The translations under genes and the position numbers were made by a program. Source: Polaromonas sp. SP1 (GTDB taxonomy: Bacteria; Pseudomonadota; Gammaproteobacteria; Burkholderiales; Burkholderiaceae_C). Taken from it: a stretch of 64,000 bases of DNA. Shown here piece after piece: positions 28,627 to 60,545 of the stretch (position 1 is its first letter; every line of letters starts with the position of its first letter). The notes beneath the pieces were generated by a model. That model ran no database searches. It was not told where the DNA came from and saw nothing but the letters and a program-made list of their open reading frames with translations. The stretch covers positions 4,010,501 to 4,074,500 of the forward strand of contig NZ_CP031013.1 of the NCBI RefSeq assembly GCF_003711205.1, read 5' to 3'.

Positions 28627-30423
<1,797 letters not shown>

Positions 30424-30483: not shown

Positions 30484-31281
30484 ATGCCCCGCTTTGCAGC
30501 GAACCTGACCATGCTCTTTAACGAGGTGCCTTTCCTCGACCGCTTCGAACGCGCCTCCATGGCGGGCTTTGAAGCTGTCGAATTTTTATTCCCGTATGCA
30601 TTCGATGCCGGTGATATCCGGCAACGCCTGGACGCCCACGGCCTGAAGCTCGTCCTGCACAACCTGCCCGCAGGCGACTGGGATGCGGGCGAGCGCGGCA
30701 TCGCGTGCCTGCCCCGCCGCGTGGACGAGTTTCGCGCCGGCGTGGCCAAAGCCGTGACCTATGCCAAGGCGCTTGGCGTCGGCCAGCTCAATTGCCTGGC
30801 CGGCAAGGCGCCGCCGGACATGGACGGTGCGCTGCTGCGCCGCACCTTTGTATCGAACCTGCGCTATGCCGCGGCCGAGCTCAAAAAAGCAGGCCTCAAG
30901 CTGTTGATCGAGCCAATCAATACCTTCGACATCCCGGGCTTTTACCTGAACCGCACCGCGCAGGCGATCGAGATCCTTGACGAAGTCGGTGCAGATAACG
31001 CCTACGTGCAGTACGACCTCTACCACGCACAGCGGATGGAGGGGGAGCTGGCCGCCACGCTGCAGAAATACCTGCACCGCATCGCCCACGTCCAGCTGGC
31101 CGACAACCCCGGCCGCAACGAGCCCGGCACGGGCGAGATCAACTACAGCTTCCTGTTCGCCCTCCTCGACCGCCTTGGGTACAAGGGCTGGGTCGGTTGT
31201 GAATACAAACCCGCGACCACGACGGAAGCGGGACTGGGCTGGTGCTGCCAGCACCTGGCCACCGAAACGGCCATCGCTTAA
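30484..31281 (+). CDS. hyi: Hydroxypyruvate isomerase
   Basis: TIM-barrel enzyme interconverting hydroxypyruvate and tartronate semialdehyde. The 265-residue protein starts MPRFAANLTMLFNEVPFLDRF and shows the family active-site blocks KLLIEPINTFDIPGFYLN (metal-binding Glu), VQYDLYHAQRMEG and GCEYKPATTT (second metal-binding Glu). It lies 60 bases after gcl and 15 before glxR, the standard glyoxylate order. Confidence 0.95.
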   Translation: MPRFAANLTMLFNEVPFLDRFERASMAGFEAVEFLFPYAFDAGDIRQRLDAHGLKLVLHNLPAGDWDAGERGIACLPRRVDEFRAGVAKAVTYAKALGVGQLNCLAGKAPPDMDGALLRRTFVSNLRYAAAELKKAGLKLLIEPINTFDIPGFYLNRTAQAIEILDEVGADNAYVQYDLYHAQRMEGELAATLQKYLHRIAHVQLADNPGRNEPGTGEINYSFLFALLDRLGYKGWVGCEYKPATTTEAGLGWCCQHLATETAIA

Positions 31282-31296
31282 ACAGAAAAGGAAACC

Positions 31297-32211
31297 ATGC
31301 ACCCGTCTGCATTAAAAATTGGATTTATCGGCCTGGGCATCATGGGCGCGCCCATGGCGGGCCACCTCATCAAGGCCGGGCACCAGCTGTTTGTCCATAC
31401 CCTGGGCAAGATGCCGGAAGCAGTCTCCGCCAGCAGTGCCACCCAATGCATGAGCGCCCGCGGCGTCGCCGAACGCGCCGACATCATCTTCCTCATGGTG
31501 CCGGACACGCCTGACGTGGAAGCGGCCCTCTTCGGTGAAGCAGGGGTCGCGGCCGGGCTCAAGGGGGCCGGCTCGGGCAAGGTGGTCGTCGACATGAGTT
31601 CCATCTCGCCGATCGCCACCAAGGCTTTTGCGCAAAAGATCAACGCGCTGGGCTGCGACTACCTGGACGCGCCCGTCTCCGGCGGTGAAGTTGGCGCCAA
31701 GAATGCGACGCTCTCCATCATGGTGGGCGGCGCCGAAGCGGTGTTTGACCGCGTCAGCCCCCTGTTCGCATTGATGGGCAAAAACATCACGCTGGTGGGC
31801 GGCAATGGCGACGGCCAGACGGCCAAGGTCGCCAACCAGATCATCGTGGCGCTAACCATCGAAGCGGTTGCCGAAGCCCTGCTGCTGGCCTCCCGCGCCG
31901 GTGCAGACCCGGCGCGTGTGCGCCAGGCCCTGATGGGCGGCTTCGCCTCGTCGAAGATTCTGGAGGTGCACGGGGAGCGCATGGTCAAGCGCAATTTCGA
32001 GCCCGGTTTTCGCATCGAGTTGCACCAGAAGGACCTGAACCTTGCGCTGTCTACCGCGCGCCAGCTGGGCATCTCGTTGCCCAATACGGCCACGGCGCAG
32101 GAGCTGTTTAACGCCTGCTCCGCCCACGGCGGCAAAGCCTGGGATCACTCGGCCATGGCGCGCGCGCTGGAAAAAATGGCCAACTTCGAAATCGGCCAGA
32201 AACCCGGTTGA
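31297..32211 (+). CDS. glxR: Tartronate semialdehyde reductase (2-hydroxy-3-oxopropionate reductase)
   Basis: NAD(P)H-dependent beta-hydroxyacid dehydrogenase that reduces tartronate semialdehyde to glycerate. The 304-residue protein has the dinucleotide motif GLGIMGAPMAGHL, the substrate motif DAPVSGGEVGAK and catalytic K177 in GQTAKVANQ. A perfect AAAGGAA precedes the ATG. Third gene of the glyoxylate operon, followed by a strong terminator. Confidence 0.94.
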   Translation: MHPSALKIGFIGLGIMGAPMAGHLIKAGHQLFVHTLGKMPEAVSASSATQCMSARGVAERADIIFLMVPDTPDVEAALFGEAGVAAGLKGAGSGKVVVDMSSISPIATKAFAQKINALGCDYLDAPVSGGEVGAKNATLSIMVGGAEAVFDRVSPLFALMGKNITLVGGNGDGQTAKVANQIIVALTIEAVAEALLLASRAGADPARVRQALMGGFASSKILEVHGERMVKRNFEPGFRIELHQKDLNLALSTARQLGISLPNTATAQELFNACSAHGGKAWDHSAMARALEKMANFEIGQKPG

Positions 32212-32309: not shown

Positions 32310-32440
32310 ACATAGCATCAAATACTTTAACTATCATTAATCGTTCTTTCTTTTTACAGTTGCCTCAAGCCCGGTGAAATAAACCCCATGGATACCGGGC
32401 AGTGCCTCAAGAGCGCCAACCCCTTCAAAGGAGAATCCTC

Positions 32441-32812
32441 ATGCTCAACGCCTTGCCTGACAACACCGCCACCGACCAGGCCCGCCACGCTTACAACGCC
32501 GCGTTTGAAGAACTCGGCCTGAGCTGGCACTGGGACGTGGCCACGTATGCCCGCCTGCAAAACAGCGCCCACGGTGCAGTGCGCACTTACCTTGAAACCG
32601 AGCAGTCCCACCTCTTGCGCGCGTACGAAGCCGATTTCCTGGTGGAAGCCGTTGAAGCCGCCAAGGCCCGCTGCTACGCCAGCCTGGCTGCCGAGAGGGT
32701 GAGCCCGGCGCCGTATGCCGTCTGGTCCAGCCATTCACTCGCACCGGCCAGCAGCCGCCCCCAAAACACCACGCCAGCACCCCGGTTCACGCCGAGCGCG
32801 CTGTACACGTGA
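32441..32812 (+). CDS. Conserved-looking small protein of unknown function
   Basis: A 123-residue protein starting MLNALPDNTATDQARHAYN at ATG 32441, preceded by AAAGGAG. The first ~85 residues look like a small all-helical cytoplasmic domain (WHWDVATYARLQ, RTYLETEQSHLL, VEAVEAAKARCYASLAAE). The tail is Ser/Pro/Thr-rich and probably disordered. There is no signal peptide or membrane segment. It is 10 bases upstream of the FAH-family gene and so probably co-transcribed with it. I do not recognise the family. Confidence 0.6.
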   Translation: MLNALPDNTATDQARHAYNAAFEELGLSWHWDVATYARLQNSAHGAVRTYLETEQSHLLRAYEADFLVEAVEAAKARCYASLAAERVSPAPYAVWSSHSLAPASSRPQNTTPAPRFTPSALYT

Positions 32813-32821: not shown

Positions 32822-33589
32822 ATGTCCAAGCGTTGGCTGCGTTTCAAGAAAGACAACTCCACCGGATTCGGCGTCCTGGAGGGCGAGAATATCCGGGTGT
32901 GCCAGGGCGACATGTTCTCGGGTGCGACCCCGACAGACCAGGTACTGCCGCTGGCCGGCGTCGAGCTGCTGATGCCGGTGCGGCCCACCAAGGTCATCGC
33001 GATGTGGAACAACTTCCACGCGCTGGGCCAAAAGCTGAACCTGGCGGTGCCGGCTGAGCCGCTCTACCTGATCAAGGCGCCGAACTCCTACCTCGACCCC
33101 AACGGCATCATCCTCAAGCCTCCCTGCAACGGCAAGGTGGTGTTCGAAGGGGAACTGGGCATCGTCATCGGCAAGACCTGCAAGCAGGTCTCTGAGCGTG
33201 ACGCCATCGACCACGTGTTTGGTTACACCTGCGCCAACGACGTGACGGTCGCCGACATCCTGAACCGCGATGCCTCATTCGCCCAGTGGGTGCGCGCCAA
33301 GGGCCTGGACACTTTCTGCCCCTTCGGGCCGGTCGTGGCCACAGGGCTGGATCCCGAGAAACTGGTGGTGAAAACCATCCTCAACGGGGAAGTCCGCCAG
33401 GACTATCCCATCAGCGACATGCGCTTTTCAGTCAGGCAGCTGGTGAGCCTGATCTCGCAGGACATGACGCTTTATGCGGGCGATATCATCCTGTGCGGCA
33501 CGTCAATCGGCGTGGGATCGATGAAACCGGGTAGCACGGTCGAGGTGGAGATTGCCGGCATCGGCAAGCTCAGCAACCGGTTCGAATAA
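32822..33589 (+). CDS. Fumarylacetoacetate hydrolase family protein
   Basis: A 255-residue protein of the FAH superfamily, which hydrolyses or decarboxylates beta-diketo and oxo-acids with a divalent metal. It shows VFEGELGIVIGK (metal-binding Glu pair), FGYTCANDVTVADI and DIILCGTSIGVGSMKPGSTVEVEI, the C-terminal family block. Length fits the short FAH-like group (oxaloacetate decarboxylase, acylpyruvase or 2-hydroxyhepta-2,4-diene-1,7-dioate isomerase types) rather than true FAH. Lying among oxalate/glyoxylate genes, an oxo-acid role is reasonable, but the substrate is not determined. Confidence 0.85.
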   Translation: MSKRWLRFKKDNSTGFGVLEGENIRVCQGDMFSGATPTDQVLPLAGVELLMPVRPTKVIAMWNNFHALGQKLNLAVPAEPLYLIKAPNSYLDPNGIILKPPCNGKVVFEGELGIVIGKTCKQVSERDAIDHVFGYTCANDVTVADILNRDASFAQWVRAKGLDTFCPFGPVVATGLDPEKLVVKTILNGEVRQDYPISDMRFSVRQLVSLISQDMTLYAGDIILCGTSIGVGSMKPGSTVEVEIAGIGKLSNRFE

Positions 33590-33612
33590 CGTTTTTTGCC
33601 AGGAGTACGGGT

Positions 33613-34623
33613 GTGAAGATTGCGATCATTGGGGCCGGGGCCATCGGCGGTTATGTGGGCGTGAAATTGGCTTTGGCCGGTGAGGACGTGACTTTCATCG
33701 TACGCGGTGCCAACCTGGACGCCATCCGCAAGAAGGGCATGAAGCTCATCATGCACGACGGCACCGAACATATCGCGGACAACGTCAAGGCGACCAATAA
33801 CTACGCTGAAGCCGGCCCGCAGGACCTGGTGATCCTGGCCATGAAAGCGCACCAGGTCGAGGCCGTGGCCAATGAATTGCCCAAGCTGTTCGGCCCTGAT
33901 ACCGCGGTCGTCACCATGCAAAACGGCATCCCTTACTGGTACTTCCACAACCACGGCGGCCCGTTCGAGGGCAGCCAGGTCCACAGCGTTGATCCCAGCG
34001 GCGTACAGTCAAAAATGATTCCTGCCCAGCGGGTGATCGGCTGCGTCGTGTACCCGGCCTCTGAACTGGTGGCGCCGGGCGTCGTCAAACATATCGAAGG
34101 TGATCGTTTTCCCGTGGGCGAGCTCGACGGCTCCACGAGTGAACGTGTCACGCGCATTTCAGAATGTTTTTCCAAAGCGGGCTTCAAGGCCCCGGTGCTG
34201 GACAACATCCGCTCGGAAATCTGGCTCAAGTTGTGGGGCAACCTCACCTTCAACCCCATCAGCAGCCTGTCCCATTCCACGCTGGTGGACATCTGCCAGT
34301 TTCCGCTGACGCGCGACCTGGCCGCCAACATGATGCGCGAAGCGCAGGAAGTTGCGCACAAGCTGGGCATCGAGTTTCGCGTCACGCTGGACAAGCGCAT
34401 CGCCGGCGCCGAAAAAGTGGGCAAACACAAGACGTCCATGCTGCAGGACATCGAAGCCGGCCGGGCGCCGGAGATCGACGCCCTCGTGGGCTCGGTGGTG
34501 GAACTGGGCCGCCTGACGCAAACGCCCACGCCGCACATCGACACGGTGTATGCCCTCGTCAAGCTGCTCGCCAAAACCATGGACGAAGAGCGCGGGCAAG
34601 TGCGGCTTCAGCTGGCCGCCTGA
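33613..34623 (+). CDS. PanE-like reductase (ketopantoate reductase family); candidate oxalyl-CoA reductase
   Basis: A 336-residue NADP-dependent reductase starting GTG 33613 with AGGAG nine bases upstream. The Rossmann motif is IGAGAIGGYVG (6-16); MQNGIPYWYF and EIWLKLWGNLTFNP (with K206 as the likely catalytic lysine) are ketopantoate reductase family blocks. The length is somewhat above that of E. coli PanE (303). Its setting, between glyoxylate genes and an oxalate transporter plus oxc/frc, matches the gene called panE2 in Methylobacterium extorquens, reported as an oxalyl-CoA reductase (recalled, not checked). A pantothenate role is the alternative. Confidence 0.8.
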   Translation: MKIAIIGAGAIGGYVGVKLALAGEDVTFIVRGANLDAIRKKGMKLIMHDGTEHIADNVKATNNYAEAGPQDLVILAMKAHQVEAVANELPKLFGPDTAVVTMQNGIPYWYFHNHGGPFEGSQVHSVDPSGVQSKMIPAQRVIGCVVYPASELVAPGVVKHIEGDRFPVGELDGSTSERVTRISECFSKAGFKAPVLDNIRSEIWLKLWGNLTFNPISSLSHSTLVDICQFPLTRDLAANMMREAQEVAHKLGIEFRVTLDKRIAGAEKVGKHKTSMLQDIEAGRAPEIDALVGSVVELGRLTQTPTPHIDTVYALVKLLAKTMDEERGQVRLQLAA

Positions 34624-35916: not shown

Positions 35917-36942
35917 GTGATGAAAACCAGATTTGCAAGCATCCGGAATAAATTGGCTGCAGCGGGGACAACCGTCATCGCAGCAGCTGCGCTGACGGCC
36001 TTCCCGGCCCACGCGGCCTGGGAACCCACCAAGCCGGTGGAGTTCGTGGTACCTGCGGGTACCGGCGGCGGCGCCGACCAGATGGCGCGACTGATGCAGG
36101 GCATCGTCATCAAGCACAAGCTGATGAAAGAGCCGCTGATCGTCGTCAACAAATCCGGTGGCGCAGGCGCCGAGGGTTTCCTGGAGGTCAAGGGCGCTAC
36201 GGGCAACCCGCACAAGATCATCATCACGCTGTCCAACCTCTTCACCACGCCGCTGGCAACCGGTGTTCCCTTCAACTGGCGCGACATGACACCGGTGTCC
36301 ATGATGGCACTCGACCAGTTCGTGCTGTGGGTGAATGCAGAGAACCCGGCCAAGAACGCCAAAGACTACCTGGCTGCCGTGAAGGCCGCGGGCCCCAGCA
36401 AAATCAAGATGGGTGGCACCGGCTCCAAGCAGGAAGACCAGATCATCACCGTCGGCATTGAGCAAGCCACCGGCACCAAATTCATCTACGTGCCCTTCAA
36501 GGGCGGCGGTGAAGTCGCGGTCCAGCTGGTCGGCAAACACGTTGACTCTTCCGTCAACAACCCGATCGAGGCGGTTGCCCAGTGGCGCGCCAACCAGCTG
36601 CGCGCTCTGTGCGTGTTCGATGACAAACGAATGACCTACAAGACCAAGGTGACCGACACCCAGTCGTGGGCCGACATCCCAACCTGCAAGGAAGCCGGTG
36701 TGCCCACCGACTACACCATGCTGCGTGGCATTTTCATGGCGCCCGGTGTCTCCAAAGACCAGCTCCAGTTCTACGTCGATCTGCTCAAGAAAATCCGCGA
36801 CACACCTGAGTGGAAAGACTACATGGAAAAAGGCGCATTCAACCAGACCTCCATGTCCGGCGACGAGTTCGGCAAATGGCTCGGCAGCGCAGAGCAGCGC
36901 CATCGCGAGCTGATGAAGGAAGCCGGCTTCATCGCGAAGTAA
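35917..36942 (+). CDS. tctC: Tripartite tricarboxylate transporter, periplasmic binding protein (TctC/Bug)
   Basis: Bug-family binding protein, 341 residues, with a signal peptide ending AFPAHA. Start GTG 35917 or ATG 35920, both behind CAGGAGA. The mature part begins WEPTKPVEFVVPAGTGGGADQMAR, the classic Bug opening that wraps the dicarboxylate. QEDQIITVGIEQATGTKFIYVPFKGGGEVA is the second family motif. It is followed by the two membrane components, so this is a complete transporter. Position in front of oxc and frc suggests oxalate or a related small diacid as substrate. Confidence 0.93.
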   Translation: MMKTRFASIRNKLAAAGTTVIAAAALTAFPAHAAWEPTKPVEFVVPAGTGGGADQMARLMQGIVIKHKLMKEPLIVVNKSGGAGAEGFLEVKGATGNPHKIIITLSNLFTTPLATGVPFNWRDMTPVSMMALDQFVLWVNAENPAKNAKDYLAAVKAAGPSKIKMGGTGSKQEDQIITVGIEQATGTKFIYVPFKGGGEVAVQLVGKHVDSSVNNPIEAVAQWRANQLRALCVFDDKRMTYKTKVTDTQSWADIPTCKEAGVPTDYTMLRGIFMAPGVSKDQLQFYVDLLKKIRDTPEWKDYMEKGAFNQTSMSGDEFGKWLGSAEQRHRELMKEAGFIAK

Positions 36943-36950
36943 CGATCAAG

Positions 36951-36972
36951 AAAACCCCGTTCGCCGGGTTTT
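36951..36972 (+). promoter_or_regulatory. Hairpin between tctC and tctB
   Basis: AAAACCCCG-TTCG-CCGGGTTTT folds into a stable UUCG-looped stem ending in T residues. It probably causes partial termination or stabilises the tctC mRNA, giving more binding protein than membrane protein. Confidence 0.65.
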
Positions 36973-37054
36973 CCCCTGCGGGCTGGCCATGCGCCAGCCC
37001 CACAATCATCAAAGTTCGCCCTGGTACAGGGCACTCAATCCAACGGAGTTGCTC

Positions 37055-37573
37055 ATGGAGCCAAACCAAGAATCCGGCGCGGAGCGCACGGGCGTCGCCA
37101 CCTATGTCGTTGAAGCCATCGTCGCGACCTGTATCGTCATCATGGGGGCGGTGGTCCTCCAGGGCAGCTGGGCCCTCGGCTCCGGCTGGACCAGCGACGG
37201 GCCAGGCGCAGGTTACTTCCCGTTTTACATCGGCATCATCCTGTGTATTTCCGGCGCAGGCACCCTCTACCAGGCGCTGTTCGGAAAGAACAAGAACACC
37301 GAAGTGTTCGTCGACGGCGAGCAGCTCAAGCGCGTGCTGTCGGTACTGGTTCCCGCCATCGTTTACGTGGGGGCTGTCCAGTTTTTGGGCCTCTACGTTG
37401 CATCGGCCGTCTACATCGCGCTGTTCATGATCATCCTGGGAAAGTTTTCCCCGATCAAGAGCGTGATCACTGCCCTCCTTGTGAACGCACTGTTTTTCTT
37501 CATGTTCGAGGTCTGGTTCAAGGTCCCCTTGTTCAAGGGCCAATTCGAGCCGCTGAGCTTCCTCGGCTATTGA
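37055..37573 (+). CDS. tctB: Tripartite tricarboxylate transporter small membrane subunit TctB
   Basis: A 172-residue protein from ATG 37055, behind CGGAG, with four hydrophobic segments (about 20-40, 57-76, 92-112, 118-150). The motif SDGPGAGYFPFYIGIIL near residue 47 is a TctB family signature. The order tctC-tctB-tctA is standard. An upstream in-frame start at 36989 would add a non-conserved leader. Confidence 0.9.
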   Translation: MEPNQESGAERTGVATYVVEAIVATCIVIMGAVVLQGSWALGSGWTSDGPGAGYFPFYIGIILCISGAGTLYQALFGKNKNTEVFVDGEQLKRVLSVLVPAIVYVGAVQFLGLYVASAVYIALFMIILGKFSPIKSVITALLVNALFFFMFEVWFKVPLFKGQFEPLSFLGY

Positions 37574-37622
37574 GCCCTCTCTAACCGTACCGAGCCCCAC
37601 AGAACTTTTACCGGATATCGAA

Positions 37623-39152
37623 ATGGAAGAACTAAATTCGCTTTTTCACGGATTCAGCGTCATTCTGACGCCGATGAACATCGTCCTGATGTTCGTGGGC
37701 ATCATTCTGGGTGTGCTGATCGGCGTGCTGCCCGGCCTTGGCGGCGCCAACGGCGTGGCCATCCTGCTGCCACTGACCTTCACGATGTCGCCCACCTCGG
37801 CCATCATCATGCTGTCCTGCATTTACTGGGGCGCACTGTTCGGTGGGGCCATCACCTCGGTGCTGTTCAACATACCGGGGGAGCCCTGGTCGGTTGCCAC
37901 CACCTTTGACGGCTACCCGATGGCGCAGCAAGGCAAGGCCGGCGCTGCGCTGACGGCTGCTTTCACCTCGTCTTTCATCGGCGCCTTTGTTGCCGTGGTG
38001 ATGATCACCTTCCTGGCGCCCCTGGTCGCCAAGTTCGCGCTCAAGTTCGGCCCTCCCGAATTTTTCGCGGTCTACCTGCTGACGTTCTGCAGCTTCGTGG
38101 GCATGGGCAAGGGCTCTCCGTTCAAGATCCTCGCGTCGATGACGATCGGCTTTGCGCTGGCCTCCGTCGGCATGGACACGGTGACCGGCCAGCTGCGCCT
38201 GACCTTCGGCATCCCCGACCTGATGCGCGGCTTCGACTTCCTGATCGCGGTGATCGGCCTGTTCGGTATCGGCGAGATCCTGCTGTCCATGGAAGAAGGC
38301 CTGGCTTTCTCGGGCAAGAGCGCCAAGATCGACCCCAAGGTCGTGCTGGAAACCTGGAAGAAGCTGCCGAAATACTGGATGACCTCGCTTCGCAGCTCGC
38401 TGATCGGTATCTGGATGGGCATCACCCCCGGCGGCGCCACACCAGCCTCGTTCATGAGCTACGGCCTGGCCAAGAAGATGTCCAAGAACGGTTCGAAATT
38501 CGGCACGGGCGAAATCGAAGGCGTCATCGCCCCCGAAACCGCAGCGCACGCTGCCGGCACCAGCGCCCTGCTGCCCATGCTGGCACTGGGCATCCCGGGC
38601 TCCCCCACCGCAGCCGTGCTGCTCGGAGGCCTGCTGATCTGGGGCCTGCAGCCCGGACCTTTGCTCTTCGTTGAGCAAAAAGACTTCGTCTGGGGCCTGA
38701 TTGCCAGCATGTACCTGGGTAACCTGGTCGGCCTGATCGTTGTGCTGACCACGGTGCCGCTGTTTGCGTCCATCCTGCGCATTCCGTTCTCCATCATTGC
38801 GCCGGTGATTGTGGTGATCTGCGCGATCGGCGCCTACACCGTGCACAACGCCATGCTGGACATCTGGTTCATGATGCTGTTCGGCGTCATCGGCTACCTC
38901 TTCAAGAAGCTGGACTATCCGCTCGCGCCGCTGGTGCTCGCATTGGTCCTCGGAGACAAGGCCGAAGACTCGTTCCGCCAGGCCATGCTGGTGTCGCAAG
39001 GTGAGATGTCCATCATGTGGTCCAACCCGCTGGTGGGCGGCATCACGACACTGGCCCTGGTCCTGCTGTTCTGGCCCCTGATCTCCCGCGTGATGGCCAA
39101 GATTCGCCCGCCCAAGAAGAACGAATTTGCCGCGGAACAGCCCGTCGACTGA
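37623..39152 (+). CDS. tctA: Tripartite tricarboxylate transporter large membrane subunit TctA
   Basis: A 509-residue permease with about 11-12 transmembrane segments. The two conserved Gly/Pro-rich blocks are present: GVLPGLGGANGVAILLPLTF near the N-terminus and TGEIEGVIAPETAAHAAGTSALLP followed by LALGIPGSPTAAVLLGG in the middle. It ends the transporter operon, directly before a strong terminator. Confidence 0.94.
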   Translation: MEELNSLFHGFSVILTPMNIVLMFVGIILGVLIGVLPGLGGANGVAILLPLTFTMSPTSAIIMLSCIYWGALFGGAITSVLFNIPGEPWSVATTFDGYPMAQQGKAGAALTAAFTSSFIGAFVAVVMITFLAPLVAKFALKFGPPEFFAVYLLTFCSFVGMGKGSPFKILASMTIGFALASVGMDTVTGQLRLTFGIPDLMRGFDFLIAVIGLFGIGEILLSMEEGLAFSGKSAKIDPKVVLETWKKLPKYWMTSLRSSLIGIWMGITPGGATPASFMSYGLAKKMSKNGSKFGTGEIEGVIAPETAAHAAGTSALLPMLALGIPGSPTAAVLLGGLLIWGLQPGPLLFVEQKDFVWGLIASMYLGNLVGLIVVLTTVPLFASILRIPFSIIAPVIVVICAIGAYTVHNAMLDIWFMMLFGVIGYLFKKLDYPLAPLVLALVLGDKAEDSFRQAMLVSQGEMSIMWSNPLVGGITTLALVLLFWPLISRVMAKIRPPKKNEFAAEQPVD

Positions 39153-39236: not shown

Positions 39237-39845
39237 TCAGATCTTGCCGCGCTGCTTGAGCCGGCTCAGGGTTTCCGCGGAGAGGTTCAGGTAGGACGCC
39301 AATTCCTTTTTGGGAATGCGGTCGAACAGTTCCGGGTGCTTGCGCTGAAAGCGTTTGACACGGCCGGGTGCGTCCAGCAAATGCAGCGTGATGGTATGGG
39401 CCATGATCTCGCTCATCAGGCGCATCACGTAGTACTCGAACGATTGCTTGATTTCATGATGGCGTTCCAGAAACGCTACCCATTCCGGCAACGGCAGCTT
39501 TGCCACCCGCACTTTGGTCACGCACACCGTGCTGTAGGGCGTCGGCGTGCCCAGCCGCCAGGCGGCGTAGCTGGTTTCCATGTCGCGCTCGTCGGCAAAA
39601 CGAAGAATCATCTCCTTGGCCTGCTCATTGGTCACCACGCGCTTGAGGATGCCTTCAAGGATGAAATATTGCTCCATCTCATGCACCCCCTGCTCCAGCA
39701 GGGCATCGCCTTTCTGCCCGTCAACAATGACCAGGTGCGACTCGAGTTCCGCGCTTTGTTCCGCCGTCATTCCCTTGAGCACGATGTTCTGCGCCAGCTG
39801 GACACGAATGACGTTTCTCTCGGAATGATTTGGTATGGACGACAT
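39237..39845 (-). CDS. Crp/Fnr-family transcriptional regulator
   Basis: A 202-residue regulator. An N-terminal cyclic-nucleotide-binding-like beta domain (about 15-115; DALLEQGVHEMEQYFILEGILKRVV) leads to a dimerisation helix and a C-terminal HTH reading IPKKELASYLNLSAETLSRLKQRGKI. The recognition helix has E191-x-x-S194-R195, the E-x-x-S-R pattern of FNR, which reads TTGA(T/C) half-sites. No N-terminal Cys cluster exists, so it is not an Fe-S oxygen sensor, and the protein ends right after the recognition helix. It is divergent from oxc; the TTGAC-N4-GTCAA site lies 66 bases upstream of its own start. Confidence 0.9.
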   Translation of the reverse strand: MSSIPNHSERNVIRVQLAQNIVLKGMTAEQSAELESHLVIVDGQKGDALLEQGVHEMEQYFILEGILKRVVTNEQAKEMILRFADERDMETSYAAWRLGTPTPYSTVCVTKVRVAKLPLPEWVAFLERHHEIKQSFEYYVMRLMSEIMAHTITLHLLDAPGRVKRFQRKHPELFDRIPKKELASYLNLSAETLSRLKQRGKI

Positions 39846-39953: not shown

Positions 39954-40109
39954 ACCTCGACGGTGCAAATGACCCCTTGGGCACCCAAAAGCGAGGCGAC
40001 GTAACACACCGCTGAAGGCCCTTCACTCAAGTCAACGAGTTTCAGGGCCCGATACGGCCAGTTGCTTTGCTCAACCTTTATCGAAGTCAAAACGAAGAGA
40101 CATTTCATC

Positions 40110-41828
40110 ATGACCAACGCCACCACATCGACAGAGCAGATCGACGGTTTCCACCTCGTCATCGATGCCCTCAAGCTCAACGGCATCGACACGATCTTCG
40201 CCCTGCCCGGCATCCCCATTACCGACCTCACCCGCAAAGCGCAGGCTGAAGGCATTCGCATGATCTCGTTTCGCCACGAGCAGCATGCCGGCAATGCCGC
40301 CGCAGCCGCCGGCTTCCTGACGCAAAAACCCGGGATTTGCCTGACCGTCTCCGCTCCCGGCTTCCTGAACGGCCTCACGGCCCTGGCCAATGCCACCACG
40401 AACTGCTTCCCGATGATCCTGATCAGCGGCTCCAGCGAGCGCGAGATCGTCGACCTGCAGCAGGGCGACTACGAAGAAATGGACCAGCTGGCGATTGCCA
40501 AGCCATTGTGCAAAGCAGCATTTCGCGTTCTGCACGCTGAAGACATCGGCGTGGGCATCGCCCGCGCCATCCGTTCGGCACTGTCCGGCCGTCCCGGCGG
40601 CGTTTACCTCGACCTGCCGGCCAAGCTGTTCAGCCAGTCGATGGACGCCGCGGCTGGCAAGAAGTCGCTCATCAAGGTGGTCGACCCCGCACCGCGCCAG
40701 ATCCCTGCCCCCGATGCCGTCAAGCGCGCACTCGACCTGCTCAAGGGCGCCAAACGCCCCCTGATCGTGCTCGGCAAAGGCGCTGCCTACGCCCAGTGCG
40801 ACGCCGATATCCGTGCCCTGATCGAAAAAACCGGCATCCCTTACCTGCCGATGTCCATGGCAAAGGGCTTGCTGCCTGACACGCACCCACAGTCGGCTTC
40901 GGCCACCCGCTCCCACGTATTGGCAGAAGCCGATGTGGTGGTGCTGGTCGGTGCTCGCCTGAACTGGCTGCTCTCGCATGGCAAAGGCAAAACCTGGGGC
41001 GGCGCGAATGCCGACACCCGCCAGTTCATCCAGATCGACATCTCGCCGACCGAAATGGACAGCAACGTGCCGATCGCCGCACCGCTGGTCGGCGACATCG
41101 GCTCGTGCGTCTCGGCATTGCTGGAAGGCCTGGGCGCCAAGTGGGCCAAGCCGCCTGCCGACTGGACCCAGGGCATCACCGAGCGCAAGGACAAGAACCT
41201 GGCCAAGATGGCCGCAACGCTGGCGCTGAACCCGCCGACGATGAACTTCCACAGCGCGCTGAACGTCATCCGCAATGCGGTCAAGGCCCGCCCCGACGCC
41301 ATCGTTGTCAACGAAGGCGCCAACACCCTCGACTTCGCGCGCAGCATCGTCGACATGTACGAGCCGCGCAAACGCCTGGACGTCGGCACCTGGGGCATCA
41401 TGGGCATCGGCATGGGCTTTGCCGTCGCCGCCGCCGTGACCACGGGTAAACCCGTAATCGCTATCGAAGGCGATAGCGCTTTCGGCTTCAGCGGCATGGA
41501 AGTAGAAACCATCTGCCGCTATAACCTTCCAATTTGTGTCATCGTCTTCAACAACAACGGCATTTACAAAGGCACCGACGTGAATCCACGTGGCGGCGAT
41601 GTAGCGCCTACTGTTTTTGTCAAGAATGCACGCTACGAGATGATGATGCAGGCTTTCGGCGGCGTGGGCGTTCTGGCCAACACACCGGACGAGCTGGCCA
41701 AGGCGCTGGACGAGGCCGTCAAATCCGGCAAGCCAACCCTGATCAACGCCATCATTGACGAAACTGCAGGCACCGAAAGCGGCCGGATCACAAGTCTGAA
41801 TCCGCAAAGCGCTGCAGCGAAGAAGTAA
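40110..41828 (+). CDS. oxc: Oxalyl-CoA decarboxylase
   Basis: ThDP-dependent enzyme splitting oxalyl-CoA into formyl-CoA and CO2. The 572-residue protein starts at ATG 40110 ([21 protein letters not shown]); a longer start would read through the promoter leader. Catalytic Glu is E57 in [15 protein letters not shown], as in Oxalobacter Oxc. [14 protein letters not shown]-like and [18 protein letters not shown] are family-specific, and the ThDP motif is [17 protein letters not shown] followed by FNNNGIYKG. It lies 26 bases upstream of frc, with which it forms the core oxalate pathway. Confidence 0.96.
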
Positions 41829-41854: not shown

Positions 41855-43126
41855 ATGAGCAACAAACCACTCGCCGGCATCAAGATCATCGACTTCACCC
41901 ACGTTCAAGCCGGTCCCGCCTGCACCCAGATGCTGGCCTGGTTCGGCGCCGACGTGATCAAGGTCGAGCGTCCCGGCTCCGGCGACGTCACCCGAAGCCA
42001 GCTGCGCGACATCGAGGGCGCCGACGCGCTGTACTTCACCATGCTCAACAGCAACAAGCGCGGCCTGACGCTGGACACCAAAAAGCCCGAGGGCAAGGAA
42101 GTGCTGGAGAGGCTCATCAAGGAATCCGACGTGATGGTCGAGAATTTTGGCCCCGGCGCGCTGGACCGCATGGGATTCACCTGGGAGCGCATCCAGGAAC
42201 TCAACCCCAAAATGATTCTGGCTTCCGTCAAGGGTTTCTCGGACGGCCACCACTACGAAGACCTCAAGGTTTATGAAAACGTGGCCCAGTGCGCAGGCGG
42301 CGCGGCGTCCACCACCGGTTACTGGAAAGGCGAGAACTCAGGCCCCACCATTTCGGCTGCCGCTTTGGGCGACAGCAATACCGGCATGCACCTGGCCATC
42401 GGTATTTTGACGGCCTATATCGGCCGCCAACAGACCGGCAAGGGCCAAAAAGTGGCCGTGTCCATGCAGGACAGCGTGCTCAACCTGTGCCGCGTCAAAA
42501 TGCGTGACCAGTTGCGCCTGGACAAGCTGGGCTACCTGGAAGAGTACCCACAGTACCCGCATGAAATGGAAGCCTTCAAGGACGGCGTGGTGCCGCGCGG
42601 CGCCAATGCCGGCGGCGGCGGCCAACCCGGCTGGATTTTGAAGTGCAAGGGCTGGGAGACAGACCCCAACGCGTACATCTATTTCACGGTTCAGGGCCAC
42701 GCCTGGGAGCCGATCTGCGACGCGCTGGGCAAACCCGAATGGAAAACCGACCCCGCCTACACCACGGCCAAGGCACGCCAGCCGCACATCATGGACATCT
42801 TCGCCACGATTGAAGCTTTCATCGCCGACAAGACCAAGTTCGAAGCCGTGGACGTCTTCCGCAAGTTTGACATTCCCTGCGCACCCGTGCTGTCAATGAA
42901 GGAATTGCTGCACGACGAGTCCTTGCGCGCCAGCGGCTCCATCGTTGAAGTGCCGCACAAGGTGCGCGGCAGCTACTTCACCGTGGGCAGCCCGATCAAG
43001 TTCTCCGACACCAAACCCGAAGTGACGGCATCGCCCCTGCTGGGCGAGCACACGGATGAAGTTCTGGCTGAACTGGGCTACAGCAAGGACCAGATCGCGG
43101 CCATCCACGCGGCAAAAGCGGTTTAA
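41855..43126 (+). CDS. frc: Formyl-CoA:oxalate CoA-transferase, copy 1
   Basis: Class III CoA-transferase moving CoA from formyl-CoA to oxalate. The 423-residue protein starts [22 protein letters not shown], nearly the textbook Frc opening. The catalytic Asp is D173 in [14 protein letters not shown] and the Gly loop is [10 protein letters not shown]. The start is preceded by AAGGAG. Immediately downstream of oxc and ended by its own terminator, so oxc-frc form a two-gene operon. Confidence 0.94.
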
Positions 43127-43242: not shown

Positions 43243-43689
43243 ATGCAAACAACAACCGACCTGAAACAGCTCGTGGAAGCCGTGGGCGACGCCATTGTGG
43301 CCTCCGATGCCGGCGGTGCGATCGTGCTGTGGAACCCGGCCGCTACGCGGATGTTCGGTTTCACGGAAGAAGAAGCCCTGGGCAAGTCGCTGGACATCAT
43401 CATTCCGCAGCGCCAGCAGCAGCGTCACTGGGACGGCTACCACAAGACCATGGAAACCGGCAAAACGCGGTATGGCAACGACGTGCTGCGGGTGCCGGCC
43501 GTGCACAAGGACGGGCATGGCCTGTCCATCGCCTTCACCGTGGCCCTGTTACATACCCCGGACAACAAGGTTTCGGCCATTGTTGCGGTGATCCGCGACG
43601 AAACCGCCCGCTTTGCCGAAGAGCGAAATCTGAAGAAACGCCTGACGGAGCTTGAAATGCAGCTTGCCCCTCAGGGCAATACACCCTAA
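43243..43689 (+). CDS. Stand-alone PAS domain protein
   Basis: A 148-residue soluble protein consisting of a single PAS domain (about 10-125): VGDAIVASDAGGAIVLWNPAATRMFGFTEEEALGKSL, then a hydrophilic loop (PQRQQQRHWDGYHKTMETG) and the C-terminal sheet (SIAFTVALLHTPDNKVSAIVAVIRDETARFAEERNL) leading into a short coiled coil. No kinase, cyclase, HTH or other output domain is attached. The W-D-G-Y-H-K-T pattern before the FG region has a His that could bind haem in PAS proteins of the FixL type, but this is only a possibility. It sits between two formyl-CoA transferase genes. Confidence 0.85.
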   Translation: MQTTTDLKQLVEAVGDAIVASDAGGAIVLWNPAATRMFGFTEEEALGKSLDIIIPQRQQQRHWDGYHKTMETGKTRYGNDVLRVPAVHKDGHGLSIAFTVALLHTPDNKVSAIVAVIRDETARFAEERNLKKRLTELEMQLAPQGNTP

Positions 43690-43816
43690 CCCAAACCGTA
43701 CAGGCTTACCACTGGAGCAGTGATTACCATAGGGGTTGACAGGGCACAAGAGGCCCGGCCATGGCCAAAACCATGTGTCAAACAACCACTTTTTCAACTT
43801 CCCAGCAGGAACTTTC

Positions 43817-45064
43817 ATGAGCAAAGCGTTAGACGGCGTTCGCATCCTTGATTTCACCCATGTCCAGTCGGGGCCGACGTGCACCCAGTTGCTGGCGTGG
43901 TTCGGCGCCGACGTCATCAAGGTCGAGCGTGCGGGCGAAGGCGACGCCACGCGCGGGCAGCTGCGCGACATCCCCGGTGTGGACAGCCTGTATTTCACGA
44001 TGCTCAACCACAACAAGCGCTCGATCACCCTGGATACCAAAAAGCCCAAGGGCAAGGAAGTCCTGGACACGCTGATCAAGGAATGCGACGTACTGGTGGA
44101 AAACTTTGCACCCGGCGCACTCGACCGCATGGGCATCACCTGGGAACACATCCAGAAGCTCAATCCCCGCATGATCGTCGCCTCGGTCAAGGGTTTCGGC
44201 CCTGGCCGCTACGAAGACTGCAAGGTGTACGAAAACGTCGCCCAGTGTGCCGGCGGCTCCGCCTCCACCTCGGGCTTTGACGACGGCCCGCCCATGGTGA
44301 CGGGCGCACAGATCGGCGACAGCGGCACCGGCCTGCACCTGGCCCTGGGCATCGTCGCCGCCCTCTACCAGCGCAACACCACGGGTCGCGGCCAGAAGGT
44401 GCTGGCCCCCATGCAGGACGCCGTGCTGAACCTGTGCCGCGTCAAGCTGCGCGACCAGCAGCGCCTGGAGCGCACCGGCACCATGCACGAATACCCGCAG
44501 TACCCCGACGGCAAGTTCGGTGAAGCGGTCCCCCGCGCAGGCAATGCTTCCGGCGGCGGCCAGCCGGGCTCCATCCTGAAATGCAAGGGCTGGGAGACCG
44601 ACCCCAACGCGTACATCTACTTCATCACCCAGGGCGCAGTGTGGCCTGCCGTCTGCAAGGTGATCGGCGAAGAAGGCTGGATTGACGACGAGGCTTTTGC
44701 CACGCCGGCGGCCCGGCTGCTGCACCTGAAGCCCATCTTCGCGCGCATCGAGAAATGGACCATGACCAAGACCAAGTTCGAGGCCATGGAAATCCTGAAC
44801 CAGTACGACATTCCCTGCGGGCCCATCCTGTCGATGAAGGAGATCGCGGAGGAGCCAGGCCTGCGCGAGACAGGCACCATTGTGGAAGTCGACCACCCCA
44901 CCCGCGGCAAGTACCTCACCGTGGGCAACCCGATCAAGATGTCAGACAGTGCCACTGAAGTGACCCGCTCACCCCTGCTGGGCGAGCACACCGACGAGGT
45001 ATTGACGCAATTGGGCTACGGCGCCGATTACATCGCCGAACTGCGCGCCGAGCGCGTCATCTAG
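43817..45064 (+). CDS. frc: Formyl-CoA:oxalate CoA-transferase, copy 2
   Basis: Second class III CoA-transferase, 415 residues from ATG 43817 ([29 protein letters not shown]). It shares the family blocks with copy 1, including catalytic D168 in [14 protein letters not shown] and an SGGGQPG glycine loop in place of AGGGGQPG. It lacks about eight residues relative to copy 1 around the central segment ([13 protein letters not shown]), like the E. coli YfdW form. It precedes formate dehydrogenase by 52 bases, so the products formyl-CoA/formate are dealt with in one unit. An acetyl-CoA:oxalate transferase activity cannot be excluded. Confidence 0.9.
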
Positions 45065-45116: not shown

Positions 45117-46811
45117 ATGAACCATCCCATCATTCCCATCGCCGTCATCGACGCCTCCAAGCAGCGAAAACGCCAGGCCCCCAAGGGCCGCCGCGTAGAC
45201 CCGCAGGCGCTGGCGGAGGTGCAGCGTCTGCTGGGCACCGAGTCGCGCCGTGCGGACCTGCTGATCGAGCACCTGCACAAGATCCAGGATGCGTTCGGCC
45301 ACCTGTCGGCAGCGCACCTGGCCGCGCTGGCCCAGGAGATGAAGCTGGCGCAGACCGAGGTCTATGAAGTGGCAACCTTCTATCACCACTTTGATGTGGT
45401 CAAGGAAGGTGAATCAGCGCCCCCCGAACTCACCGTGCGCGTCTGCGACGGCCTGTCATGCGAGATGGCGGGCGCCAAGGATCTGCTGGCCAGGCTCCCT
45501 GCCCTGCTGGGCCGCGAAGTCCGTGTCATTGCCGCGCCCTGCATAGGCCGCTGCGAACAGGCTCCCGCGGCCGTGGTGGGCCAAAACCCGGTGCCGAACG
45601 CCAGCTGCGAAGCCATCGTGTCGACCGTCGCTGCGCAGGCTGTGCAACACGTGCCCGAAGGGTTTGTCGACCTTCCCGCCTACCAGGCAGAAGGCGGCTA
45701 CAGCCTGCTCAAGCAATGCGTCTCGGGCGGACGTGATGTCGAAGCCGTCCTCAAGACCATGGAAGACTCCGGCCTTCGCGGCCTCGGTGGGGCAGGATTT
45801 CCGTCCGGCCGCAAGTGGCGCATTGTCCGGGCCGAAAAAGGCCCACGCCTGATGGCCGTCAACATCGACGAGGGCGAGCCCGGCACCTTCAAGGACCGCG
45901 TTTACCTGGAGCGCGACCCGCACCGTTTCCTCGAAGGCATGCTGATCGCCGCCTGGGCCGTCGGCATCGAGAAGATCTACGTTTACCTGCGGGATGAATA
46001 CCACGGCTGCCGCAACATGCTGGAAGCCGAACTGGCCCGGCTGCGGCTGGACCCATTGATGGCCGGCATGCCGGAGATCGAGCTGCGCCGCGGCGCGGGC
46101 GCCTACATCTGCGGCGAAGAGTCGGCCATGATCGAATCCATCGAAGGCAAGCGCGGCATGCCCCGCCTGCGCCCACCGTACGTGGCGCAAGTTGGCCTGT
46201 TCGGCCGGCCGACGCTGGAGCACAACTTCGAAACGCTGTACTGGGTCCGCGACATCCTGGAAAAAGGCGGCGAGTGGTTTGCCTCGCACGGCCGCAACGG
46301 CCGCAAGGGCTTGCGTTCGTTCTCGGTGTCGGGGCGGGTCAAGGAGCCCGGCGTCAAGCTGGCGCCGGCCGGCATCACCATCCAGGAGCTGATCGACGAG
46401 TACTGCGGCGGCATGCTGGACGGTCACACGTTCTATGCCTACCTGCCCGGCGGTGCTTCGGGCGGCATCCTGCCGGCCACGATGAACACGATTCCGCTGG
46501 ACTTCGACACGCTGCAACCCTACGGCTGCTTTATCGGCTCGGCGGCCGTCATCATCCTTTCCGACAAGGACACGGCCACCGGCGCTGCACGCAACATGAT
46601 GAGTTTCTTTCACCATGAGTCTTGCGGCCAGTGCACGCCCTGCCGCGTCGGCACGGCGAAAGCGGCGCACCTGATGGAGCAGCCCAAGTGGGATCTGGCC
46701 TTGCTGGCAGACCTGTCGCTGGTGATGCGTGACGCATCGATCTGCGGCCTGGGCCAGGCAGCACCGAACCCGATGGACTGCGTCGTCAAGTACTTCCCCC
46801 ACGAACTATGA
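45117..46811 (+). CDS. NAD-linked formate dehydrogenase beta subunit (NuoE-NuoF fusion)
   Basis: A 564-residue diaphorase subunit that passes electrons from the formate-oxidising alpha subunit to NAD+. Residues about 30-165 are a NuoE/FdsG-type thioredoxin-like [2Fe-2S] domain (VCDGLSCEMAG and APCIGRCEQAP supply the four Cys). Residues about 200-560 are NuoF/FdsB: FMN site GLRGLGGAGFPSGRKW, NADH loop GAGAYICGEESAMIESIEG, and the [4Fe-4S] motif ESCGQCTPCR. The fused layout resembles the beta subunit of the tungsten enzyme FDH1 of Methylobacterium rather than the separate FdsG and FdsB of Cupriavidus. Confidence 0.93.
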   Translation: MNHPIIPIAVIDASKQRKRQAPKGRRVDPQALAEVQRLLGTESRRADLLIEHLHKIQDAFGHLSAAHLAALAQEMKLAQTEVYEVATFYHHFDVVKEGESAPPELTVRVCDGLSCEMAGAKDLLARLPALLGREVRVIAAPCIGRCEQAPAAVVGQNPVPNASCEAIVSTVAAQAVQHVPEGFVDLPAYQAEGGYSLLKQCVSGGRDVEAVLKTMEDSGLRGLGGAGFPSGRKWRIVRAEKGPRLMAVNIDEGEPGTFKDRVYLERDPHRFLEGMLIAAWAVGIEKIYVYLRDEYHGCRNMLEAELARLRLDPLMAGMPEIELRRGAGAYICGEESAMIESIEGKRGMPRLRPPYVAQVGLFGRPTLEHNFETLYWVRDILEKGGEWFASHGRNGRKGLRSFSVSGRVKEPGVKLAPAGITIQELIDEYCGGMLDGHTFYAYLPGGASGGILPATMNTIPLDFDTLQPYGCFIGSAAVIILSDKDTATGAARNMMSFFHHESCGQCTPCRVGTAKAAHLMEQPKWDLALLADLSLVMRDASICGLGQAAPNPMDCVVKYFPHEL

Positions 46812-46906
46812 GCCCCCACGCTTGTCGCTTCGCGTACTACGCTGCCCCCCGAGGGGGCTGGCCTTGCTTGGGGCGGCCCGGCGCTGCGGCCGGCCTGCCT
46901 GCGCAC
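46811..46906. repeat. Intergenic GC-rich repeat between the formate dehydrogenase genes
   Basis: Starts directly after the beta-subunit stop with GAGCCCCCACGCTTGTCGCT, continues with TCGCGTACTACGCTGCCCCC and CGAGGGGGCTGGCC, then GGGGCGGCCCGGCGC. I recognise it as a common intergenic repeat of Comamonadaceae genomes (from memory). It contains hairpin-forming arms (GCCCCC / GGGGGC). Confidence 0.7.
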
Positions 46907-46920
46907 TTTAAGGATTTCTC

Positions 46921-49758
46921 ATGAATGCAATTACCCGCCAGGAACTCGCAGAGCTCGATGCTCCGCTCGTAAGTTTCAGCCTCAACGGCCGTGAAGTCCA
47001 GGGCCGTGCCACCGAATCGCTGCTGCAGGTCGCCAAACGCGAAGGCGTGGAGATTCCGCACCTGTGCTTCAAGGAAGGCATGGAAGCCGTCGGCAACTGC
47101 CGCTCCTGCATGGTCGAGATCAACGGTGAGCGCGTACTCGCCCCCTCCTGCTGCCGCGCGCCGACTGCCGGCATGAAGGTCGTCACCGACAGCGAACGCG
47201 CCGTCGCATCCCAAAAAATGGTGCTGGAGCTGTTGCTGTCGGACATGCCCGAGAAGGAATACACCCGCAACAACGAGGTGGACCAGTGGGCCGCCAAAAT
47301 CGGCGTCGGCAAGCCCCGTTTCGAGGCGCGCCAGCAGGTGCGCCAGGATGTGTCGCACCCCGCCATTGCCGTGAACCTGGACGCCTGCATCCAGTGCACG
47401 CGCTGCCTGCGCGCCTGCCGCGACGAACAGGTCAACGACGTGATCGGCCTGGCCTTCCGCGGTGACCAGGCCAAGATTGTGTTCGACATGGACGACGCGA
47501 TGGGCGCGTCCACCTGCGTGGCCTGCGGCGAATGTGTGCAGGCCTGCCCCACCGGCGCACTGATGCCCGCCCGTGAGGCTGCGCTGACCGTGCCGGACAA
47601 GCAGGTCAAGTCGGTCTGCCCCTATTGCGGCGTCGGCTGCCAGCTGACCTACAACGTCAAGGACGACAAGATTCTGTTTGTGGAGGGCCGCGACGGCCCG
47701 GCCAACCACGAGCGCCTGTGCGTCAAGGGCCGCTACGGTTTTGATTACGCACACCATCCGCAGCGCCTGACCAAGCCGCTGATCCGCCGCGAAGGCGTGC
47801 CGAAAACCGGCGACTTCACGATGGACCCGGACCGCGTGATGGACGTGTTCCGCGAAGCCAGCTGGGAAGAAGCGCTGGAATTCGCCGGCGGCAAGCTTGC
47901 CGCCATCCGCGACCAGTACGGCAAAAAATCGCTGGCCGGTTTCGGCTCGGCCAAAGGCAGCAACGAAGAGGCCTACCTGTTCCAGAAGCTGGTGCGCACC
48001 GGCTTCGGCAGCAACAACGTCGACCACTGCACCCGCCTGTGCCACGCCTCTTCCGTGGTCGCCCTGCTGGAAGGCATCGGCTCCGGTGCGGTGTCCAACC
48101 CGGTGATGGATGTGACCAAGGCGGATGTCGTTGTCATCATCGGTGCCAACCCGACGGTCAACCACCCTGTCGCTGCCACCTGGATCAAGAACGCCGTGAA
48201 AAACGGCACCAAACTGATCGTGATGGATCCGCGCCGCTCTGACCTGACCCGCGTGGCGCACCGCCACCTGCAGTTCAAGCCCGACACCGACGTGCCCATG
48301 CTCAACGCGATGATGAATGTCATCGTGACCGAAGGCCTGGTAGACCAGGCCTTCATCGACAGCCGCACCATCGGCTACGAAGAGCTGCGCAAAAACGTGG
48401 AGGGCTACACGCCCGAGTTGATGGCCCCAATCTGCGGTATCGACGCCGAGACGCTGCGCTACGTGGCACGCCTGTTCGCCACCTCCAAAGGCTCGATGAT
48501 CCTCTGGGGCATGGGCGTTTCGCAGCACGTGCACGGCACCGACAACGCACGCTGCCTGATTGCCCTTTCATTGATGACCGGCCAGATCGGCCGTCCCGGC
48601 ACCGGCCTGCACCCCCTGCGCGGCCAGAACAATGTGCAGGGCGCGTCCGACGCGGGCCTGATCCCCATGATGCTGCCGGATTACCAGCACGTCTCCAAAC
48701 CCGAGGTCCGCGCCAGCTTCGAGAAGGCCTGGGGCGTGGCGCCCGGCTCCCTGGATGACCAGGTCGGCCTGACAGTGGTCGAGGTGATGCACGCCATCAA
48801 GAAGGGCGGCATCAAGGGGATGTACGTGCAGGGCGAGAACCCGGCCATGTCCGACCCCGACGCCAACCACGCGCGTGAAGCCCTGGCGGCCCTGGACCAC
48901 CTGGTGGTGCAGGACATCTTCCTGACTGAAACCGCCTACCTCGCGGACGTGATCCTGCCGGCCAGCGCCTTCCCTGAAAAGGACGGCAGCTTTACCAACA
49001 CCGACCGGCTGGTGCAGATGGGCCGCAAGGCCATCAACCCGCCCGGCGATGCGCGCCAGGACCTCTGGATCATCACGCAGATCGCCAACCGGATGGGTTG
49101 CGGCTGGGACTACAAGCACGTCTCCGAGGTGTTCGACGAGATGCGCCACACCATGCCCAGCATTGGCGGCATCACCTGGGAGCGGCTGGACCGCGAGCAT
49201 TCGGTCACCTACCCCTGCATGAAGGAAGGCGATCCCGGCCAGTCGGTGGTGTTCGTGGAGGACTTCCCCCGCGAAGGCGGCCGCGCTAAATTCGTTCCGG
49301 CAGACATCATCCCGGCCAACGAGCGCCCCGATACCGAGTACCCCATGGTGCTGATCACCGGCCGCCAGCTGGAACACTGGCACACCGGCAGCATGACGCG
49401 GCGCGCCACGGTGCTCGATGCGATCGAGCCTGATCCGGTCGCCCTGGTGCACCCGCTGGACCTCGCCGCCATGGGCGGAAAACCGGGCGATGTGGTGACG
49501 ATCGAGTCGCGCCGCGGCAAGGTGGGCCTGTACGCCCGCGCCGATGAGAGCTCGCCACGCGGCGCTGTGTTTGTACCTTTCTGTTACTACGAGGCCGCCA
49601 TCAACAAACTGACCAACGCGGCGCTGGACCCTTTCGCGAAGATCCCGGAGTTCAAGTACTGCGCGATTCGTGTGTCGCTGGGCGGCGTGCCGCCCGAGCA
49701 GGACAGCTACGGCGGCGGGCAGGCGCTGAAGAATTCGATCGCGCTTGCCGGCTTCTGA
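46921..49758 (+). CDS. NAD-linked formate dehydrogenase catalytic alpha subunit
   Basis: A 945-residue molybdo/tungsto-bis-PGD enzyme oxidising formate to CO2. In order: NuoG-like [2Fe-2S] domain (CFKEGMEAVGNCRSC ... SCC), two [4Fe-4S] clusters (CIQCTRCLRAC; CVACGECVQACPTGAL), the CPYCGVGC cluster, and the molybdopterin domains. The catalytic residue is Cys in HCTRLCHASSV (Sec in E. coli FdhF). The C-terminal dinucleotide-binding domain carries TGRQLEHWHTGSMTRR. It starts after TAAGGA. With the beta subunit it forms a soluble NAD+-reducing enzyme; accessory FdhD and FdsC-like genes are not in the window. Confidence 0.95.
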   Translation: MNAITRQELAELDAPLVSFSLNGREVQGRATESLLQVAKREGVEIPHLCFKEGMEAVGNCRSCMVEINGERVLAPSCCRAPTAGMKVVTDSERAVASQKMVLELLLSDMPEKEYTRNNEVDQWAAKIGVGKPRFEARQQVRQDVSHPAIAVNLDACIQCTRCLRACRDEQVNDVIGLAFRGDQAKIVFDMDDAMGASTCVACGECVQACPTGALMPAREAALTVPDKQVKSVCPYCGVGCQLTYNVKDDKILFVEGRDGPANHERLCVKGRYGFDYAHHPQRLTKPLIRREGVPKTGDFTMDPDRVMDVFREASWEEALEFAGGKLAAIRDQYGKKSLAGFGSAKGSNEEAYLFQKLVRTGFGSNNVDHCTRLCHASSVVALLEGIGSGAVSNPVMDVTKADVVVIIGANPTVNHPVAATWIKNAVKNGTKLIVMDPRRSDLTRVAHRHLQFKPDTDVPMLNAMMNVIVTEGLVDQAFIDSRTIGYEELRKNVEGYTPELMAPICGIDAETLRYVARLFATSKGSMILWGMGVSQHVHGTDNARCLIALSLMTGQIGRPGTGLHPLRGQNNVQGASDAGLIPMMLPDYQHVSKPEVRASFEKAWGVAPGSLDDQVGLTVVEVMHAIKKGGIKGMYVQGENPAMSDPDANHAREALAALDHLVVQDIFLTETAYLADVILPASAFPEKDGSFTNTDRLVQMGRKAINPPGDARQDLWIITQIANRMGCGWDYKHVSEVFDEMRHTMPSIGGITWERLDREHSVTYPCMKEGDPGQSVVFVEDFPREGGRAKFVPADIIPANERPDTEYPMVLITGRQLEHWHTGSMTRRATVLDAIEPDPVALVHPLDLAAMGGKPGDVVTIESRRGKVGLYARADESSPRGAVFVPFCYYEAAINKLTNAALDPFAKIPEFKYCAIRVSLGGVPPEQDSYGGGQALKNSIALAGF

Positions 49759-60467: not shown

Positions 60468-60545
60468 GAGCCTATTGTGCCGCTGGATGTGCACAGCCGC
60501 AGCGCCAGAACGGGCCTCTATCAACCAAGCGGGTGCCGCGGAACC

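Follow-up and report, generated by a model that had tools for sequence, protein, structure and literature searches.

Oxalyl-CoA reductases of the PanE2/ApbA2 type have been described before, in Methylobacterium and in Cupriavidus, and the gene presented here is very probably a further member of this type. Conversion of oxalyl-CoA into glyoxylate by PanE2 of Methylobacterium extorquens has been published (PMC8411744), and the oxalyl-CoA reductase reaction was reported to be reversible with a Km of 0.36 mM for glyoxylate (PMC9485241). With apbA2 deleted, Cupriavidus necator needed 10 h per doubling on oxalate instead of 6.5 h, and the identity between PanE2 of strain AM1 and ApbA2 was reported as 51% (PMC7486775). 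The enzyme decides whether a bacterium only burns oxalate or also builds biomass from it, a difference that bears on oxalate-carbonate cycling. Annotation pipelines apply the name '2-dehydropantoate 2-reductase' and a pantothenate GO term to the whole clade and to its sister paralog alike, so that oxalate assimilation does not show in annotated genomes. In a recent survey of oxalate enzymes, assimilation was marked by Gcl, hydroxypyruvate reductase and serine-glyoxylate transaminase, not by panE2 (PMC12927642).

The panE2-type gene and its cluster in Polaromonas sp. SP1

The window, i.e. the whole stretch of DNA analysed, comprises 64,000 nucleotides at 4010501-4074500 of the complete 4.5 Mb genome of Polaromonas sp. 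SP1, and its panE2-type gene (at 4044113 of the contig) is an intact ORF of 336 codons with a GTG start. A sequence-only reading had placed a PanE-family gene between gcl-hyi-glxR and the tct/oxc/frc genes, and both its position and its neighbours were found exactly as described; the FAH-family gene at 32822-33589 and the small ORF at 32402-32812 had been omitted. The features of the cluster are as follows (window coordinates).

28627..30423, + strand: gcl, glyoxylate carboligase, which would consume the glyoxylate product (PRK11269, 1134 bits, cut-off 791)
30484..31281, + strand: hyi, hydroxypyruvate isomerase-like TIM barrel (PF01261, AP_endonuc_2)
31297..32211, + strand: glxR, tartronate semialdehyde reductase (PRK15059, 460.5 bits, cut-off 451)
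32402..32812, + strand: conserved small protein of 136 aa, recurring beside FAH-panE2 in oxc/frc-type clusters
32822..33589, + strand: FAH-family protein, directly upstream of the panE2-type gene (PF01557)
33601..33605, + strand: ribosome-binding site AGGAG, read from the sequence, 7 nt before the GTG start
33613..34623, + strand: panE2-type gene, 336 aa, predicted NADPH-dependent oxalyl-CoA reductase / CoA-acylating glyoxylate dehydrogenase (EC 1.2.1.17)
35917..39152, + strand: tctC-tctB-tctA, tripartite tricarboxylate-type transporter, candidate oxalate importer, recurring with panE2 in both architectures described below
39237..39845, - strand: Crp/Fnr-type regulator with a cNMP-binding domain (Pfam), beside oxc in relatives too
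40062..41828, + strand: oxc, oxalyl-CoA decarboxylase, a competing use of oxalyl-CoA (TIGR03254, 993 bits, cut-off 739)
41855..43126, + strand: frc1, formyl-CoA:oxalate CoA-transferase, which makes oxalyl-CoA (TIGR03253, 707 bits, cut-off 504)
43736..45064, + strand: frc2, second formyl-CoA transferase (TIGR03253, 717 bits, cut-off 504)
45117..49758, + strand: formate dehydrogenase genes, burning formate and supplying reducing power (ORF 45117-46811 and molybdopterin oxidoreductase subunit 46921-49758)

The TTG start listed for frc2 is probably overextended, with an in-frame ATG at about 43817. Between frc1 and frc2 lies a gene for a single PAS-domain protein of 148 aa (43243-43689, + strand), whose place is kept in many relatives. 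The small protein encoded at 32402-32812 had no match in Pfam or NCBIfam; genes of its type were present in 27 loci, 26 of which contained FAH and none (0/27) the ligase described below. A congener (L191, G203) showed a gene order identical to that of the window from tauE to frc1, with a 79% identical copy of hyi at the same position, so that the cluster is neither an assembly accident nor a chance arrangement. Polaromonas eurypsychrophila (L060), the closest named relative found, also had the same order (89% identity for panE, 98% for tctA and 95% for oxc). Outside the cluster, the window also carries a cobalamin-related block (2996-24393, - strand: two CobB/CobQ-type proteins, CobN, CobW, a FecCD permease and a TonB receptor) and a gene for a ThDP-dependent enzyme of 587 aa (58761-60524, - strand), which, in a comparison with the ThDP genes of the relatives' loci, showed no close relationship to Oxc, to Gcl or to the frc-linked type mentioned below.

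The product of the panE2-type gene contains both PanE/ApbA domains (Pfam: PF02558, E 4e-30; PF08546, E 1e-29) and matched NCBIfam NF005089, '2-dehydropantoate 2-reductase', with 488 bits against a cut-off of 223. This is the pantothenate label that the sequence-only reading had expected from pipelines, and it is a misnaming of the gene. We consider it very probable, on the evidence given below, that the product is an oxalyl-CoA reductase of the PanE2/ApbA2 kind, for which substrate, cofactor and chemistry are predicted by homology to the published enzymes.

According to the proposed pathway, Frc would convert oxalate into oxalyl-CoA, of which Oxc would decarboxylate a part, the resulting formate being oxidised for reducing power, and the panE2-type enzyme would reduce the remaining oxalyl-CoA with NADPH to glyoxylate. 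Glyoxylate would then be carried to phosphoglycerate by Gcl, Hyi, GlxR and a MOFRL-type glycerate kinase, whose gene lies outside the window at 265917 of the contig. As to the presumed chemistry, the hydride would be delivered to the thioester carbonyl adjoining the carboxylate, and the adduct would collapse into glyoxylate and CoA; the active site of a ketopantoate reductase (KPR) could serve oxalyl-CoA because this substrate has a carboxylate next to a carbonyl, -OOC-C(=O)-, as in ketopantoate.

Since the reaction is reversible (PMC9485241), the step could run backwards under glyoxylate excess, and the same enzyme might even work mainly in this direction in vivo, converting glyoxylate into oxalyl-CoA for disposal via Oxc. 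We regard such a role as improbable, because the transporter, the two frc genes and the formate dehydrogenase of the cluster fit the intake of oxalate and because deletion of apbA2 impairs growth on oxalate in C. necator (PMC7486775).

Relatives and signature residues

The best match of the window protein in the plasmid collection was a Methylobacterium bullatum protein (L010; 60% by tblastn, 61% by protein alignment), and a C. metallidurans relative of C. necator ApbA2 was 56% identical. It is thus nearer to Methylobacterium PanE2 and to the C. metallidurans relative than to its own two paralogs (41% and 28%). Matches to the M. bullatum protein were found in 64 of 111 Methylobacterium genomes, exactly one in each and 73-100% identical (one a fragment), and the next PanE homolog in three genomes checked was only about 30% identical; because each matching genome holds a single clade member, the published M. 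extorquens PanE2 is almost certainly a protein of the M. bullatum-type clade, an assignment made by sequence through the genus. The M. bullatum protein and the C. metallidurans relative were 51% identical, equal to the figure reported for AM1 PanE2 and ApbA2.

A careful tree was built from 75 sequences, leaving out E. coli PanE with its very long branch. The window protein and that of P. eurypsychrophila formed a pair (100/96) within a 21-row oxalate-linked clade (99/99), and the sister paralogs, including PDB 3ghy, formed a separate group (100/100), as did the ApbA2 group of Cupriavidus, Azospirillum, Phyllobacterium and Rhodobacteraceae (98/85). The PanE-like outgroup, whose members were assigned by similarity only apart from E. 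coli PanE, fell on one side (86/88) with the window protein outside it. Union of the main clade and the ApbA2 group in a single clade was neither shown nor rejected (p-AU 0.51). The phylogenetic check that the sequence-only reading had named hence gave the expected picture, with the window protein apart from the PanE-like outgroup proteins and grouped with the Methylobacterium PanE2 clade.

The KPR catalytic residues were kept in all groups (E. coli N98, K176, S244 and E256 = window N104, K206, S275 and E287), and for this reason the window protein may have some ketopantoate activity. The main clade agreed with the ApbA2 group against the sister group at 14 positions (window H80, Y110, Y147, P148, A149, F166, R200, E202, L211, F255, A266, V269, H272 and A314), and no positions were found that favour either other pairing of these three groups. 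With a 12-residue test set, which was picked after the groups were known, the ApbA2 group not being used for choosing the first list, the window protein matched at 12 of 12 residues, all 91 of 91 main-clade rows at 11 or 12, the ApbA2-group rows (n=5) at 11 or 12, the sister rows at 0-2 and the PanE-like rows at 1-3. The E. coli counterpart of window H272 in the alignment is N241, which we take to line the substrate site. An AlphaFold2 model of the window protein (pLDDT 93.9, pTM 0.90) was nearest to PDB 3ghy (TM-score 0.90).

Gene neighbourhoods of the relatives

Among 201 genomes of the family, PanE2 occurred in 46. When PanE2 was at least 68% identical to the window protein, 14 of 16 genomes contained oxc (2.7 expected, Fisher p 1e-10), whereas below 68% oxc was present in 2 of 30, the inspected ones carrying a ligase instead. 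Because these distant members use the ligase architecture, the association of all PanE2 with canonical oxc was only moderate (16 of 46 genomes, 7.8 expected, p 6e-4), and the neighbourhood was therefore used as evidence instead. The count covered loci flanked by 8 kb or more on each side, and oxc, frc, oxlT and oxalate-CoA-ligase-like genes served as markers when they lay no further than 10 kb away. Such a marker was found in 44 of 53 clade loci (31/38 in genome contigs and plasmids, 13/15 in the family sample), against 0 of 19 loci of the sister paralog.

Two main architectures were seen: one has oxc/frc and a Crp-type regulator, as in the window, and the other an AMP-forming ligase together with OxlT or TctABC. 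Among solved structures, the AMP-forming ligase of the Methylobacterium loci came closest to oxalyl-CoA synthetase / oxalate-CoA ligases, and the order FAH-panE2-ligase or oxlT-FAH-panE2 was present in 30 of 30 Methylobacterium loci inspected. The two sets of partners are unrelated, and oxalyl-CoA is their sole common point. A third context was found in a MAG labelled Oxalobacter formigenes, where a panE2 ortholog 77% identical to the window protein (L066:9962-10990, + strand) lies between genes for formate-THF ligase and a BhcA-like glyoxylate aminotransferase; this ortholog is a candidate oxalyl-CoA reductase gene of the gut bacterium O. formigenes. Common to the oxc/frc, ligase and Oxalobacter contexts are oxalyl-CoA and glyoxylate. 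Together with the grouping with the Methylobacterium PanE2 clade, this neighbourhood specific to oxalyl-CoA genes supports the function that the sequence-only reading had suggested, and the residue signature and the neighbourhood rule could become a proper annotation model.

Three further gene associations were observed in these loci. A ThDP enzyme about 25-29% identical to Oxc lies beside frc and panE2, upstream of frc (L011, L041, L052, L069, L075 and L096), scoring 222 bits against the Oxc model in L052 (cut-off 739); by sequence it is a candidate for a second type of oxalyl-CoA decarboxylase. A sucC/sucD-like pair recurs beside FAH-panE2 (L014, L034, L055, L057, L088, L096, L193 and L201) and could serve as a CoA activator of oxalate or formate. 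Membrane transhydrogenase genes follow closely 3' of panE2 in Azospirillum and Phyllobacterium (L012, 9744-12763; L014, 9058-12261), which fits the NADPH demand.

Less known than the enzyme itself are its FAH partner and the part that TctABC is likely to play in oxalate uptake. In both architectures FAH was found near panE2 more often than any other gene: of 88 distinct panE2 loci, 51 contained it, and in 38 it stood immediately upstream on the same strand. The nearest solved relatives of the FAH protein of the window (32822-33589) were HpcE-type decarboxylase/isomerases. We put forward, as a tentative proposal with the odds rather against it, that the FAH gene is a functional partner of the oxalyl-CoA reductase in an FAH-panE2 module conserved across both architectures. 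If so, FAH may clear or process a glyoxylate by-product, for example the adduct of an aldol reaction with oxaloacetate or pyruvate. The published oxalate-assimilation schemes that we found contain no such step, and our literature search gave no paper linking FAH proteins with oxalyl-CoA or oxalate metabolism. Regarding the transporter, TctCBA accompanied panE2 in oxc/frc loci as well as in ligase loci with no oxc nearby, replacing OxlT; TctABC is a candidate tripartite oxalate importer. The literature search likewise gave no paper linking TTT transporters with oxalyl-CoA decarboxylase.

The same neighbourhoods bear on whether the window protein could be a KPR-fold 2-oxoacid reductase acting on glyoxylate, hydroxypyruvate or tartronate semialdehyde and not on a CoA thioester. 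Structure comparison placed D-mandelate dehydrogenases in the same fold, and the gene lies near gcl-hyi-glxR. However, a tartronate semialdehyde reductase is already present in the cluster as glxR, most relatives share oxalyl-CoA-forming neighbours rather than gcl, and the published data on PanE2 and ApbA2 favour oxalyl-CoA (PMC8411744, PMC7486775, PMC9485241), so that a second tartronate semialdehyde or glyoxylate reductase was rejected as very unlikely.

Paralogs and comparison with known systems

The genome contains three strong PF02558 (PanE-family) genes: that of the window, one at 1205316, whose product is 41% identical to the window protein and belongs to the same NCBIfam subfamily NF005089, and one at 3679543 (L001), whose product is 28% identical. 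The gene at 3679543 is the best PanE candidate of the genome, because its product matched E. coli KPR over the full length (E 1.6e-15), whereas the match of the window protein was weak and covered a partial stretch (E 5.2e-5). The sequence-only reading would have been weakened by a sole panE in this genome; instead, the panE2-type gene is one of three, and panB (2275390) and panC (2272563) lie close together elsewhere on the contig, far from it. That it might be a genuine ketopantoate reductase of pantothenate biosynthesis standing beside oxalate genes by chance, as its Pfam and NCBIfam names, its retained KPR catalytic residues and the presence of an L001-type paralog in only 83 of 201 family genomes would allow, is hardly credible and was rejected in view of the two further PanE-family genes, the better KPR match of one of them, the separate panB and panC, and the patchy distribution of the clade (46/201) tied to oxalate genes.

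The window protein shares with PanE2 of M. extorquens AM1 the fold, the NCBIfam family and the oxalate context and, judged via the M. bullatum ortholog, 61% identity and all 12 test signature residues. The surroundings differ, as the Methylobacterium operon combines panE2 with the ligase and/or OxlT and with FAH, whereas the window has Frc/Oxc and TctABC. ApbA2 of C. necator has the same reported role and a gene close to frc-oxc (PMC7486775), and its C. metallidurans relative, which has 56% identity with the window protein, carries all 12 test signature residues; ApbA2 nevertheless belongs to a separate branch (98/85), and in C. metallidurans CH34 the ThDP enzyme beside frc shares only about 29% identity with the Oxc of the window. 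The sister NF005089 paralog (1205316; PDB 3ghy) has the insertion after the NG(I/V)P motif, the catalytic residues and the NCBIfam subfamily in common with the window protein, but the identity is about 41-43%, the genome's own copy and 3ghy show 0 of 12 signature residues, and no oxalate genes lie nearby in 19 loci. E. coli PanE (PDB 1ks9) has the catalytic residues of the window protein and the same kind of fold (TM-score 0.72 by query length), but it is 23% identical, has neither the insertion nor the signature, and acts in another pathway.
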